Below are positions 48,899 through 53,500 of a DNA stretch of 64,000 nt, piece after piece (positions within the stretch are counted from its first letter, which is position 1; each line of letters begins with the position of its first letter). The DNA is from Alphaproteobacteria bacterium (lineage in GTDB: Bacteria > Pseudomonadota > Alphaproteobacteria > Ferrovibrionales > Ferrovibrionaceae): contig JAFKFH010000021.1 of assembly GCA_017307375.1 (NCBI GenBank), positions 62,001-126,000 on the forward strand, read 5' to 3'. The notes under the pieces are model-generated. The model was not told where the DNA came from. It was given only the letters and a program-made list of their open reading frames with translations, and made no database searches. Position numbers and translations under genes: made by a program.

Positions 48899-50413
48899 AT
48901 GGTGATGGCGCCGCGGTTGGAGTTGCGCCAGGGCCAGGCCCTGGTGATGACCCCGCAATTGCAGCAGGCGATCAAGCTGCTGCAACTCTCCAATCTCGAA
49001 CTCGTCGCCTATGTCGAACAGGAACTGGAGCGCAACCCGCTGCTGGAGCGCGTCGATGCGGACGGTGGCGGCGACTTCGACGGCGCCGACGGCGATGCGC
49101 CGGAGGCGGTACCGGAGGCGACGCAGGGCTTGTCTGCCCTGGAGCTCGATCCCGACAAGCCGCGCCAGGCCGATGCCGACACGGCGATAGATGCCGAGAT
49201 CGACAACACCTTCACCAACGACGGCCCGTCCGATCAGGGATATAATTCCTATGAAGGCCTGATCGAGGGGCGCGGCGGATCTGCGACCTTCGACGACGAT
49301 CGGACCGATTTCACCGAGCTGATGTCCGAGCGCCCGACCTTGCGCGAGCATCTGGCGGATCAGGTCAGCCTGGAATTCACCGACCCGGTCGAACGCGCCA
49401 TCGCCATGCATCTGGTGGGGCTGGTCGACGAGGCGGGCTATCTGCGCGAGCCGGTCGCCGACATCGCGGAACGCCTGGGCGCGCCGGCGGCGCAGGTCGA
49501 GGCCGTACTGGTCCGCTGCCAGGGTTTCGACCCCACCGGCGTGATGGCCCGGGATCTTGCCGAATGCCTCAGGCTGCAACTGGTCGAGCGTGATCGCTGC
49601 GACCCGGTGATGGCCAAGCTGCTCGAGCATCTCGACCTTCTCGCCGCGCGCGACACCGCGGCGCTGATGCGCGTCTGCGGCGTCGATGCCGAGGATGTGG
49701 CCGACATGATCCGCGAGATCAGGGCCCTCAATCCCCGCCCCGGTGCCGCGTTCGAGCATGAGACGGCGCAGACCCTGATCCCCGACGTGCTGGTCCGCCG
49801 CGCGCCGGAAGGCGGCTGGACCGTGGAATTGAACGGCGAGACGCTGCCGCGTCTGCTCGTCAACCAGCGCTATCTCGCCACCGTCGGCAGCCATAACAAG
49901 GCGACCAAGTCCTATCTGTCGGACTGCCTGTCGTCCGCCAACTGGCTGCTGCGCTCGCTCGACCAGCGGGCGACGACGATCCTCAAGGTCGCCTCCGAGA
50001 TCGTGCGCCAGCAGGACAGTTTTCTGGTGCGCGGCGTGGCCCATCTGCGCCCGTTGAACCTGCGGACCATCGCCGATGCCATCGGCATGCACGAAAGCAC
50101 GGTCAGCCGCGTCACCTCGAACAAATACATGGCGACGCCCCGCGGCATCTTCGAGCTGAAATACTTCTTCACCGCCGCCATCGCCTCGACCGACGGCGGC
50201 GCGGCTCATTCGGCCGAGGCGGTGCGTCACCGCATCAAGTCGCTGATCGACGGCGAGGGCAAAGCCGTCCTCTCGGATGATCGGCTGGTCGAGCTGCTGA
50301 AGGAAGACGGCATCGACATCGCCCGGCGCACGGTGGCGAAGTACCGGGAGGCGCTGAACATCCCGTCATCGGTGCAGCGGCGTCGCCAGAAGGACCTGGC
50401 CGAGAAGGGCTAA
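48899..50413 (+). CDS. rpoN: RNA polymerase sigma-54 factor
   Basis: The 504-residue protein has the Gln/Leu-rich activator-contact region I (RQGQALVMTPQLQQAIKLLQ), an acidic region II (~55-115), the core-binding domain, the helix-turn-helix (LRTIADAIGMHESTVSRVTS) and the RpoN box ARRTVAKYREALNIPSS. It directs polymerase to -24/-12 promoters such as the one before acoA in this window. Position next to lptB, hpf and ptsN is conserved across proteobacteria. GTG/ATG alternatives at the start differ by two codons. Confidence 0.97.
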   Translation: MVMAPRLELRQGQALVMTPQLQQAIKLLQLSNLELVAYVEQELERNPLLERVDADGGGDFDGADGDAPEAVPEATQGLSALELDPDKPRQADADTAIDAEIDNTFTNDGPSDQGYNSYEGLIEGRGGSATFDDDRTDFTELMSERPTLREHLADQVSLEFTDPVERAIAMHLVGLVDEAGYLREPVADIAERLGAPAAQVEAVLVRCQGFDPTGVMARDLAECLRLQLVERDRCDPVMAKLLEHLDLLAARDTAALMRVCGVDAEDVADMIREIRALNPRPGAAFEHETAQTLIPDVLVRRAPEGGWTVELNGETLPRLLVNQRYLATVGSHNKATKSYLSDCLSSANWLLRSLDQRATTILKVASEIVRQQDSFLVRGVAHLRPLNLRTIADAIGMHESTVSRVTSNKYMATPRGIFELKYFFTAAIASTDGGAAHSAEAVRHRIKSLIDGEGKAVLSDDRLVELLKEDGIDIARRTVAKYREALNIPSSVQRRRQKDLAEKG

Positions 50414-51007: not shown

Positions 51008-51472
51008 ATGGAGATAGCTCAAGTGTTGACAGCGAACGGCGTGGTCGCCTCACTCAAGGCAACCAGCAAGAAGCAGGCTTTGCAGGACCTGGCCACGCGT
51101 GCTGCGCGGCTGACCGGCCTGCACGAGCGGCAGATCTTCGAGACCCTGCTCGAGCGCGAGCGGCTGGGTTCGACCGGCGTCGGCCATGGGGTGGCGATAC
51201 CCCATGGCCGGATCCCGGGCCTTGACCGGCTGCATGGCCTGTTCGCCCGGCTGGACACGCCGATCGATTTCGATGCGATCGACAATTTGCCGGTCGACCT
51301 GATCTTCGTGCTGCTCGCACCCGAAACTGCCGGCGCCGATCACCTGAAGGCACTGGCCCGGGTCTCGCGCCTGCTGCGCGACAAGTCGATGTGCGAAAAG
51401 CTGCGCGGGACCGACAACCCCGACGCCCTCTATGCGCTGCTGACCGAGGCACCGGCGACCAACGCCGCCTGA
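51008..51472 (+). CDS. ptsN: PTS IIA-like nitrogen regulatory protein
   Basis: The 154-residue EIIA-Ntr protein has the phosphorylatable His66 in GVGHGVAIPHGRIPG and the conserved VDLIFVLLAPETAGADHLKA. In the nitrogen PTS it takes phosphate from PtsP/NPr and regulates potassium transport, PHB and nitrogen responses. Position after rpoN and hpf is conserved. An 11-residue N-terminal run (MEIAQVLTANG) fits the family start. Confidence 0.93.
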   Translation: MEIAQVLTANGVVASLKATSKKQALQDLATRAARLTGLHERQIFETLLERERLGSTGVGHGVAIPHGRIPGLDRLHGLFARLDTPIDFDAIDNLPVDLIFVLLAPETAGADHLKALARVSRLLRDKSMCEKLRGTDNPDALYALLTEAPATNAA

Positions 51473-51481
51473 ATTGGCATC

Positions 51482-51505
51482 GCGCCGGCCCTGATCGGCC
51501 GGCGC
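51482..51505 (+). terminator. Hairpin after ptsN
   Basis: GCGCCGGCC (51482-51490) and GGCCGGCGC (51497-51505) form a perfect 9-bp stem ten bases after the ptsN stop. There is no T-run directly after, so termination may be weak. It is the only candidate end for the lpt-rpoN-ptsN unit. Confidence 0.5.
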
Positions 51506-51561
51506 AACCAATCGATCGGCCGGGGCGTTTTCCGGGGTAATCCCCGCGAAAAGGTCCCGAC

Positions 51562-52671
51562 GTGTCGACATCGAACGATCATTCCGGCTTCGCGCACGGC
51601 GCGCTGACGCTGCCGGACGTCACCATCACCAGCTACAACCTGGAACTGCGCGACGACGAAGGCTTCGTCGGCGACCGGGCATCGGGGCGGGCTTTCCGCG
51701 CCATTCTCGACGAGCTTCGTGCCAAGGTGGGCGAGGTCGCCGACGATCCATTCGGCGCGGTGCCCAGCCGCGACCTGAAGAAAAAGACGCTCGACAAGAT
51801 GCTGGCGGAAGGCGATCCGATCGCCGCCGGCATCATCCACGGTGCGATCGAGGAATTCGCCGGCGCCCTCGCCGCGGTGGTGCGCCGATTCCTACGGCTG
51901 AAGGCCTGGTCGACGGTGACGCGCGTGGTGGTCGGTGGTGGCCTGCGCCATTCGCGGATCGGCGAACTGGCGATCGGCCGGGCCGACGTCATCCTCAAGG
52001 CCGAGCGCATCGCCGTCGACCTGGTGCCGCTGACCCGCCATCCCGATCACGCCGGGCTGATCGGCTGCACCCGCATCATGCCGTCATGGCTGCTGGAAGG
52101 GTTCGACGCCATGCTGGCCGTCGATGTCGGCGGCACGAACATCCGCTGCGGCGTGGTGCGGCTGAATACCGACAAGGCCGCCGATCTGTCGGCGGCCGAG
52201 ATCGGCCAGTTCGAGCTGTGGACCCATGCCGACGACAAACCCGGCCGCGAACAGGCGATCGACCGCCTGGCCGACATGCTGCGCGACCTGCAGGCAAAGG
52301 TGGAGAAGAAGGATATGCGGTTGGCGCCGCTGATCGGGGTCGGCTGCCCCGGGCTGATCGATCCCGACGGGTCGATCGAGCGGGGCGCACAGAACCTGCC
52401 GGGCAACTGGTCCAGCCAGCGCTTCAACCTGCCGGCGGCGCTGAGCCGCCGAATCCCGGCGATCGGCGATCACGACACCGTGGTGGTGATGCACAACGAC
52501 GCGGTGGTCCAGGGCCTGAGCGAGGTCCCGACGATGAACGAGGCCGGGGACTGGGGTGTGCTGACCATCGGCACCGGGCTCGGCAATGCCAGCTTCTCGA
52601 ACCGTACCGCCGAGGAACCGCCGAGGAAGCAGGCCCGCGCCAAGCCGAAGGCCAAGCCAAGGAAGAAATAG
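51562..52671 (+). CDS. ROK-family-like protein with circularly permuted motif order
   Basis: All ROK sugar-kinase/repressor landmarks occur in the 369 residues but in rotated order. The normally C-terminal VVVGGGL (122-128) and DHAGLIG (162-168) come first, followed by the normally N-terminal ATP phosphate loop AVDVGGTNIRCGVV (186-199), GCPGLIDPDG (261-270), HNDAV (311-315) and GTGLG (337-341), after which the protein ends in a Lys/Arg tail. The zinc motif CxCGxxGC is absent. ASGRAF (40-45) resembles the segment that normally follows the zinc site. I infer a circularly permuted actin-like ATPase-fold kinase or ligand sensor. It follows ptsN by 89 bp. Confidence 0.8.
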   Translation: MSTSNDHSGFAHGALTLPDVTITSYNLELRDDEGFVGDRASGRAFRAILDELRAKVGEVADDPFGAVPSRDLKKKTLDKMLAEGDPIAAGIIHGAIEEFAGALAAVVRRFLRLKAWSTVTRVVVGGGLRHSRIGELAIGRADVILKAERIAVDLVPLTRHPDHAGLIGCTRIMPSWLLEGFDAMLAVDVGGTNIRCGVVRLNTDKAADLSAAEIGQFELWTHADDKPGREQAIDRLADMLRDLQAKVEKKDMRLAPLIGVGCPGLIDPDGSIERGAQNLPGNWSSQRFNLPAALSRRIPAIGDHDTVVVMHNDAVVQGLSEVPTMNEAGDWGVLTIGTGLGNASFSNRTAEEPPRKQARAKPKAKPRKK

Positions 52672-52974: not shown

Positions 52975-53433
52975 TCAGGCGCCATCGTCCACTGCCATCC
53001 GCCGCCCGCCAGGCTTGGCCGGGGTGTTGATGGCGATACGCTTGACCTCGGTACCGGCACGCGGCCGGACGAGGTCGATGTGAAGCAGTCCGGAGTCCAA
53101 CTCCGCTCCGGTGATCTCGATCCCTTCCGCCAGCACGAAAGCGCGCTGGAACTGCCGGGCCGCGATACCCCGGTAGAGGAAGACGCGGTCGGGGGCGGCC
53201 ACCTCGCTCTGCCGCCCGCGGATCACCAGCTGGTTTTCCTGCAGGGTGATGGCGAGGTCGTCGGCGGCGAAACCTGCCACGGCGAGCGTGATGCGCAGGC
53301 GATCGTCGCCGATCTGCTCGATGTTGTACGGGGGGTAGCCGTCATTGCCCGACTTGGCCACCCGGTCGAGCACGCGTTCGACATGGTCGAATCCGAGCAG
53401 CAACGGGCTGTTGAACAACGGCACTCTCGTCAT
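52975..53433 (-). CDS. Small heat-shock protein Hsp20 family
   Basis: The 152-residue protein has an alpha-crystallin domain (residues ~37-130) with PPYNIEQIGDDRLRITLAVA, the conserved ENQLVIRGRQ and the GELDSGLLHIDL-like ending as GAELDSGLLHIDLVRP. Such IbpA-type chaperones hold unfolding proteins for refolding. The final IxI tail motif appears as RIAINTP. ATG 53431-53433 is chosen over the adjacent TTG because AGGAG lies eight bases upstream. A heat-shock-type promoter precedes it. Confidence 0.92.
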   Translation of the reverse strand: MTRVPLFNSPLLLGFDHVERVLDRVAKSGNDGYPPYNIEQIGDDRLRITLAVAGFAADDLAITLQENQLVIRGRQSEVAAPDRVFLYRGIAARQFQRAFVLAEGIEITGAELDSGLLHIDLVRPRAGTEVKRIAINTPAKPGGRRMAVDDGA

Positions 53434-53500
53434 CAAGTCTACTCCTCGTCCCGAGCGAGCGACGGCGGCAGCCCGGGGATCGGCACTGCCTGTAGCATCA

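Follow-up and report, generated by a model that had tools for sequence, protein, structure and literature searches.

A family of ROK-type proteins with rotated motif order, predicted to be circularly permuted kinases and linked to EcfG-type promoter candidates

Introduction

In ordinary ROK proteins the sequence motifs run in the order DxGGT, ND, GTGxG and GGG, with DIGGT at the N terminus and the GGG and DAGLIG segments at the C terminus. Some accepted members of the family do without the zinc motif. A second described system that bears on this work is the general stress response of Alphaproteobacteria, for which the accessible sections of PMC3892343 give the R. etli-type EcfG promoter consensus as GGAAC-N16-CGTT.

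Here we analyse a gene in a 64,000-nucleotide stretch of an alphaproteobacterial genome (the window), whose product carries ROK motifs in a rotated order. Where its relatives have a name in databases, it is “ROK family protein” or “hypothetical protein”. Because the ROK match comes from one half of the protein, the rotation has been overlooked, including on pSymB of Sinorhizobium meliloti. The literature searched, in which subscription papers are thinly covered, yielded no description of a permuted ROK protein or of a permuted actin-like ATPase. The string “permut” occurs 0 times in the accessible main text of PMC12696579, and the accessible part of PMC1079889 has permutation only as a general grouping rule; the portions available of PMC7824862 and PMC10326533 are unrelated to permuted ROK proteins, and those of PMC11387232 and PMC8092242 do not mention the permuted gene.

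Results

A ROK-type gene with rotated motif order

The gene and the parts of its product are located in the window as follows.

51562..52671, + strand: permuted ROK gene, 369 amino acids with a GTG start (from the open reading frame and homologues)
51595..52089, + strand: residues 12-176, counterpart of the ROK second half, with the rest of lobe II, helices, the adenosine motif GGG (125-127) and DHAGLIG (162-168) (from hhalign and the N-half model on 3vgk_B)
52081..52116, + strand: residues 174-185, putative joint linking the former C and N termini (from the model and hhalign)
52111..52605, + strand: residues 184-348, counterpart of the ROK first half, with DVGGT (188-192), GCPG (261-264), HND (311-313) and GTGLG (337-341) (from Pfam PF00480 and the model on 3vgk_B)
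52606..52668, + strand: residues 349-369, basic tail, with pLDDT < 50 at residues 351-361

Direct reading of the protein places VVVGGG at residues 122-127, ND at 312-313 and the remaining motifs as listed. All six motif positions quoted in the sequence-only reading were confirmed, and their numbering matches invariant columns of the alignment. Alignment A1 holds 20 rows that are 51-65% identical to the window protein, and invariant positions in it include D188, G190, G191, N312, D313, G337-G341 and G125-G127. Across all 48 aligned homologues, H12, F35, G37, D38, W220, Q277, L279 and P280 do not vary.

The ROK features DxGGT, the catalytic ND, GTGxG and GGG are all present in the family, and their linear order is not the ROK one. 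GGG comes first, followed by DxGGT, ND and GTGxG, in 47 of the 48 homologues that are complete and distinct; the remaining one, L034, has no readable GTGxG. Two partial sequences (L036 and L017) and one duplicate (L027) had been dropped before this count. The rotated order is thus more than chance. Neither E.GH nor C.C.{4}GC was found in any of the 51 extracted homologue sequences, partial ones counted, which bears out the earlier claim that the zinc motif is lost. Since the order, ExGH and the zinc motif all fail, we file the family as a permuted ROK variant and not as an ordinary member.

Beyond the last strand, the tail is 0 to 36 residues long across 48 homologues. Lys or Arg make up 9 of the last 21 residues of the window protein (52606-52668).

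Profile comparison of the two halves

PF00480 (ROK) matched the window protein with 31.9 bits, exceeding the curated cutoff of 22.9, over residues 185-348 only, equivalent to profile positions 2-142 of 294. NCBIfam gave only weak matches, to the same half (residues 184-348), and the first 176 residues by themselves matched no Pfam or NCBIfam family over cutoff. It had been expected that a tandem copy of the sequence would give a full-length match to the ROK family across the join. Pfam gave none: in the tandem copy of the window protein the C-half alone was recognised, and two rotated sequences (P0001, which is the window protein, and L007) did not cover the whole profile, their best stretch being again the C-half. 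As Pfam left the second half undetected in tandem and rotated sequences, a profile-profile comparison was needed.

The comparison set for hhalign consisted of 25 canonical ROK proteins from genomes of the window's class, including the window's own genome. In native order, the permuted profile gave two out-of-order matches, of residues 184-344 to canonical positions 6-142 (score 49.6) and of residues 72-175 to canonical positions 206-302 (score 46.0). Rotated at residue 180, it gave a single match of 4-345 to 6-302 with a score of 79.2. This was the best of 35 cut points spaced 10 residues apart, none of which scored above 50 outside 130-250. When the N-half columns were shuffled, the rotated score had a mean of 49.9 and a maximum of 56.9 (150 shuffles), and with the N-half reversed it was 49.5. 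The N-half alone scored 45.5 against the 25 canonical proteins, its own shuffles reaching at most 25.3 (150 shuffles). Another hhalign option gave the same picture at lower scores, 72.9 for the rotated profile and 27.5 for the N-half alone, with one match spanning the join of a tandem canonical profile.

Predicted structures and the position of the cut

The AlphaFold2 model of the whole protein, built from 18 rows, had a pLDDT of 85.6 and a pTM of 0.85, with pLDDT < 50 in segments 1-8 and 351-361. VIA-align 2 matched model residues 180-348 to the first halves of ROK chains: the C-half aligned to 2yhy (ManNAc kinase) with Z 11.5 (147 aligned, rmsd 2.2), and residues 182-348 aligned to 3vgk_B 2-142 with Z 9.2 (138 aligned, rmsd 2.3). 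The N-half folded alone (residues 9-182) reached a pLDDT of 70.9, a middling confidence. Its top 11 Foldseek matches were ROK proteins, the best with an E value of 3.8e-3 and none below 0.001. With VIA-align, N-half residues 28-168 were laid on 3vgk_B 154-306 (130 aligned, rmsd 3.4) with Z 9.2, a value little above the range of 7-8 that the alignment tool terms common; pantothenate kinases, which are unrelated actin-like kinases, gave Z about 7 with the same model. With 182-348 on 2-142 and 28-168 on 154-306, the two halves thus match swapped halves of 3vgk_B. The whole model also aligned in sequence order, over about residues 17-329, to CoaX, Hsp70 and actin with Z about 9, matches that are likely to reflect the resemblance between the two lobes of the superfamily.

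In the model the first strand spans residues 20-25, and the last two are 330-336, which ends at GTGLG, and 340-347. Since the strand following this hairpin carries ExGH in ordinary ROK proteins, we place the cut in the hairpin, inside lobe II, and infer that it lies a few residues past GTGLG, before the ExGH-type strand. The cut proposed from the motifs, after GTGLG, would shift by these few residues.

Both halves of the ROK fold were therefore recognised, by hhalign and in the predicted models, and the circular permutation proposed from the sequence is backed by the profile-profile alignment with its shuffle controls and by structure prediction for the full-length protein and for the N-half by itself. 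The N-half resembles the ROK second half, not an unrelated fold. Homologues in the form of a fusion of two incomplete ROK genes were not seen, the complete ones being single open reading frames in rotated order. These comparisons support the view that the protein is a ROK fold, as modelled, cut within the second lobe and with its halves in swapped order.

Distribution of the family

Many bacteria that live in soil or associate with plants carry relatives with the same rotation. When 84,980 species, each represented by one genome, were scanned with six exact peptide patterns, which gives a lower bound, 18 loci with 52-67% identity were found, 17 near full length and 1 cut by a contig end. In a plasmid collection 206 records matched, 204 of them covering at least 80% of the query. 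By profile search the family is present in 11 of 241 genomes of the window's class and in 22 of 398 genomes of its phylum, all 22 with a match over nearly the whole model; 5 of these 22 carriers belong to another class. Near-complete matches in G605, G444 and G281 have one stop codon counted inside. Two genomes, G437 and G453 (L075 and L076), hold two full copies of the permuted gene each, and G250 (L038) has a full copy and a fragment of about 98 residues elsewhere. A quick tree of 88 rows has a branch (SH-aLRT 84) that sets the permuted proteins apart on one side, but it also brings long branches together, and its rotated rows were joined artificially; the family may have a single origin, with which this tree is compatible.

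Relatives in ordinary order

The C-half profile (A4) had matches in 6 of 115 genomes at E 0.001, among them L098, described below. Short zinc-less ROK proteins match NF045942, the polyphosphate glucokinase type, best; of three scanned, L170 alone passes the cutoff of 250 bits, with 404 bits for L170, 121 for L135 and 54 for L166. Against the same cutoff the permuted proteins P0001 and L003 scored 21.5 and 28.2, and L007 had no match at 0.001. Some proteobacteria carry such short, zinc-less, polyphosphate-glucokinase-like ROK proteins (L135-L137, L166 and L171): the genes of L166 and L171 lie directly after annotated gnd and zwf, and those of L135-L137 stand, by eye, beside sugar-phosphate or trehalose genes.

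A 373-residue ROK-like protein with ordinary motif order and no zinc motif, P0002 (L098:754-1872, - strand), scored 18.6 bits against PF00480, under the cutoff. It was rejected as the nearest canonical relative, its scores of 57.3 with the permuted family and 52.1 with canonical ROK proteins failing to discriminate. Relatives of P0002 were found in 0 of 349 genomes at 1e-5, and there was no plasmid match.

Upstream region and genomic neighbourhood

The surroundings of the gene in the window include the following features.

51504..51529, + strand: EcfG-type promoter candidate GCAAC-N17-CGTT, which matches 8 of 9 bases with a spacer of 17 and whose end is 32 bases ahead of the GTG
51008-51472: ptsN, directly upstream of the permuted ROK gene
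48899-50413: rpoN, three genes up from the permuted ROK gene, before hpf
52975-53436, - strand: HSP20 small heat-shock gene, downstream, on the opposite strand

We scanned the 150 bases upstream of the gene at 50 distinct loci for GGAAC-N16/17-CGTT. Matches of 8-9 of 9 bases occur at 33 of the 50 loci, 9 of them perfect, and 17 of the 50 score 7 or less, counts that include related loci (for example L010 and L017) and are not independent. In controls, 8-9 of 9 was reached by 3.9% of 10,000 windows drawn at random from these loci and by 2 of 25 canonical ROK genes. Of the 33 sites, 28 begin 91-134 bases before the H12 codon; those of L023-L026 and L032 are further off and may lie in the preceding gene. 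L089, L090 and L091, which come from another class, score 7, 5 and 6. The window genome has two NepR genes, with matches over cutoff. Because the upstream genes differ between loci, the promoter site stays while its surroundings change. This EcfG-type promoter candidate, clear at many loci and marginal in the window, suggests a role in the general stress response.

A perfect 9-bp inverted repeat with a 6-base loop, seen by eye, follows ptsN at 51482-51505. It shares two bases with the promoter candidate, and no T run follows it.

The gene had been described as lying next to rpoN-ptsN; ptsN is indeed directly upstream, but rpoN is three genes up and does not adjoin it. No match to the window's ptsN, hpf, rpoN or hsp20 was found at the other loci, many of which extend about 1.5 kb per side, and a PTS link via rpoN-ptsN was dropped as unsupported, this neighbourhood not being found elsewhere. 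ORF clustering of 20 loci found a neighbour family shared by at least 3 loci only among L008, L009 and L018, one such family occurring also in L012, and of ten neighbours taken from eight loci, no two were of one kind. Across the compared loci there was no conserved neighbour hinting at a substrate.

Two individual neighbours are recorded here for their annotation. In a metagenome-assembled genome titled Myxococcales, the permuted ROK gene is followed at L013:6269-7351 (+ strand) by a gene whose product contains a CHAD domain (137.7 bits), a domain that binds polyphosphate. On Sinorhizobium meliloti pSymB (L020:4624-5781, - strand) the permuted gene and an M42 peptidase gene, assigned by its annotation to the NAGGN osmoprotectant system, are divergently oriented; in strain 1021 the permuted gene occupies NC_003078 477065-478135 on the minus strand.

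Predicted activity

The earlier reading had left open whether the protein is a kinase or a sensor. As phosphate-binding and catalytic residues are kept, a kinase is the likelier of the two, and the protein is most likely a stress-induced small-molecule kinase, as predicted from its conserved residues and upstream region. The family lacks ExGH and the zinc motif and instead keeps other residues invariant (H12, G37, D38, W220 and Q277-P280), for which reason the substrate or the phosphate donor probably differs from that of ordinary glucokinase; polyphosphate is a possible donor. Our guess, from the D/E-L-A-H of L135-L137, is that H12 stands for the ExGH histidine.

In the arrangement that we propose, the old N and C termini would be joined through a short linker at about residues 174-185, and new termini would be opened in lobe II, in the hairpin that separates the GTGLG strand pair from the ExGH-type strand. 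The chain would then pass from the rest of lobe II through the adenosine motif GGG and the joint into lobe I with the phosphate-1 motif DVGGT, continue to the catalytic HND, and end after the phosphate-2 motif GTGLG. Such a protein would fold as a two-lobed clamp and act as a small-molecule kinase, its substrate probably being a sugar or polyol and D313 its putative base. The EcfG-type promoter candidate suggests its use in the alphaproteobacterial general stress response.

Discussion

Taken as a whole, the explanation that we favour, and think fairly probable, is that of a natural, circularly permuted ROK-type (actin-like, ASKHA) kinase with a small-molecule substrate and a link to EcfG. A more detailed version, in which a permutation splitting the phosphate-2 lobe became fixed in proteobacteria and produced a stress-induced kinase that uses polyphosphate or a new substrate via a rebuilt sugar site, is put forward tentatively, and we would not expect it to hold in every part.

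It is highly improbable that nothing is permuted and that the first 180 residues form a domain of other origin ahead of half a ROK domain. Such an arrangement would fit the confinement of the Pfam and NCBIfam matches to residues 184-348, but hhalign aligns the N-half to the ROK second half, with shuffle controls, the N-half model aligns to the second halves of ROK structures, and its 11 best Foldseek matches are ROK proteins, although none falls below E 0.001. A different question is raised by the affinities of the two halves. The C-half scored 87.2 against seven polyphosphate-type proteins (thirteen loci entered, seven through the motif filter) and 49.6 against the 25 other ROK proteins, and the N-half 22.9 and 45.5, so the halves point to different relatives. 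This split could stem from the polyphosphate type having a short second half, or from a fusion of the second half of one ROK gene to the first half of another, which would give the same fold. We consider the fusion unlikely: seven polyphosphate-type proteins were compared, and their second half is shorter, while the complete homologues carry both halves together, so that any fusion would be as old as the family.

A permuted fold could also serve as a non-catalytic ATP or sugar sensor or regulator, like Mlc/NagC-type ROK proteins. The absence of ExGH and the zinc motif from all 51 sequences would suit such a role, as would the presence of the ROK repressors 5f7p (Z 11.4) and 1z05 (Z 10.9) among the closest structures to the C-half. 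We nevertheless find it doubtful, given that all 20 rows of A1 retain N312, D313 and the phosphate motifs without change and that the N-half matches no Pfam or NCBIfam family over cutoff, hence no recognised DNA-binding domain. A permuted kinase of this kind would be a natural experiment, in which an actin-like clamp has tolerated cutting and rejoining. The family is also a candidate for membership in the general stress response of Alphaproteobacteria, and a laboratory strain is available in which to test this.

With the ROK sugar kinases (PF00480; for example 3vgk, the S. griseus glucokinase, and 2yhy, ManNAc kinase) the family has in common both halves of the fold, as well as DxGGT, the HND/END-type catalytic pair, GTGxG and a GGG that is C-terminal in those kinases; it differs in the rotated order, in the lack of ExGH and CxCGxxGC, and in matching half of the Pfam profile. 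Polyphosphate glucokinase-type ROK proteins (NF045942; L170 and short relatives such as L135) give the best C-half profile score and share the absence of the zinc motif and the NDAxxQGL segment, and the YVGDR of L135 resembles, by eye, the FVGDR of the permuted family. They are unlike it in having the ordinary order and a length of about 230-260 amino acids, and the permuted N-half matches them poorly. Other ASKHA proteins (CoaX, Hsp70 and actin) have two RNase-H-like lobes in common with it, but the alignments to them (about 17-329) omit the last strands, would lay lobe II on lobe I, and involve a different motif order. Finally, the EcfG general stress regulon of Alphaproteobacteria is matched by R. 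etli-type promoter candidates at many permuted-ROK loci, the site in the window differing from the EcfG consensus by one mismatch and a spacer of 17.
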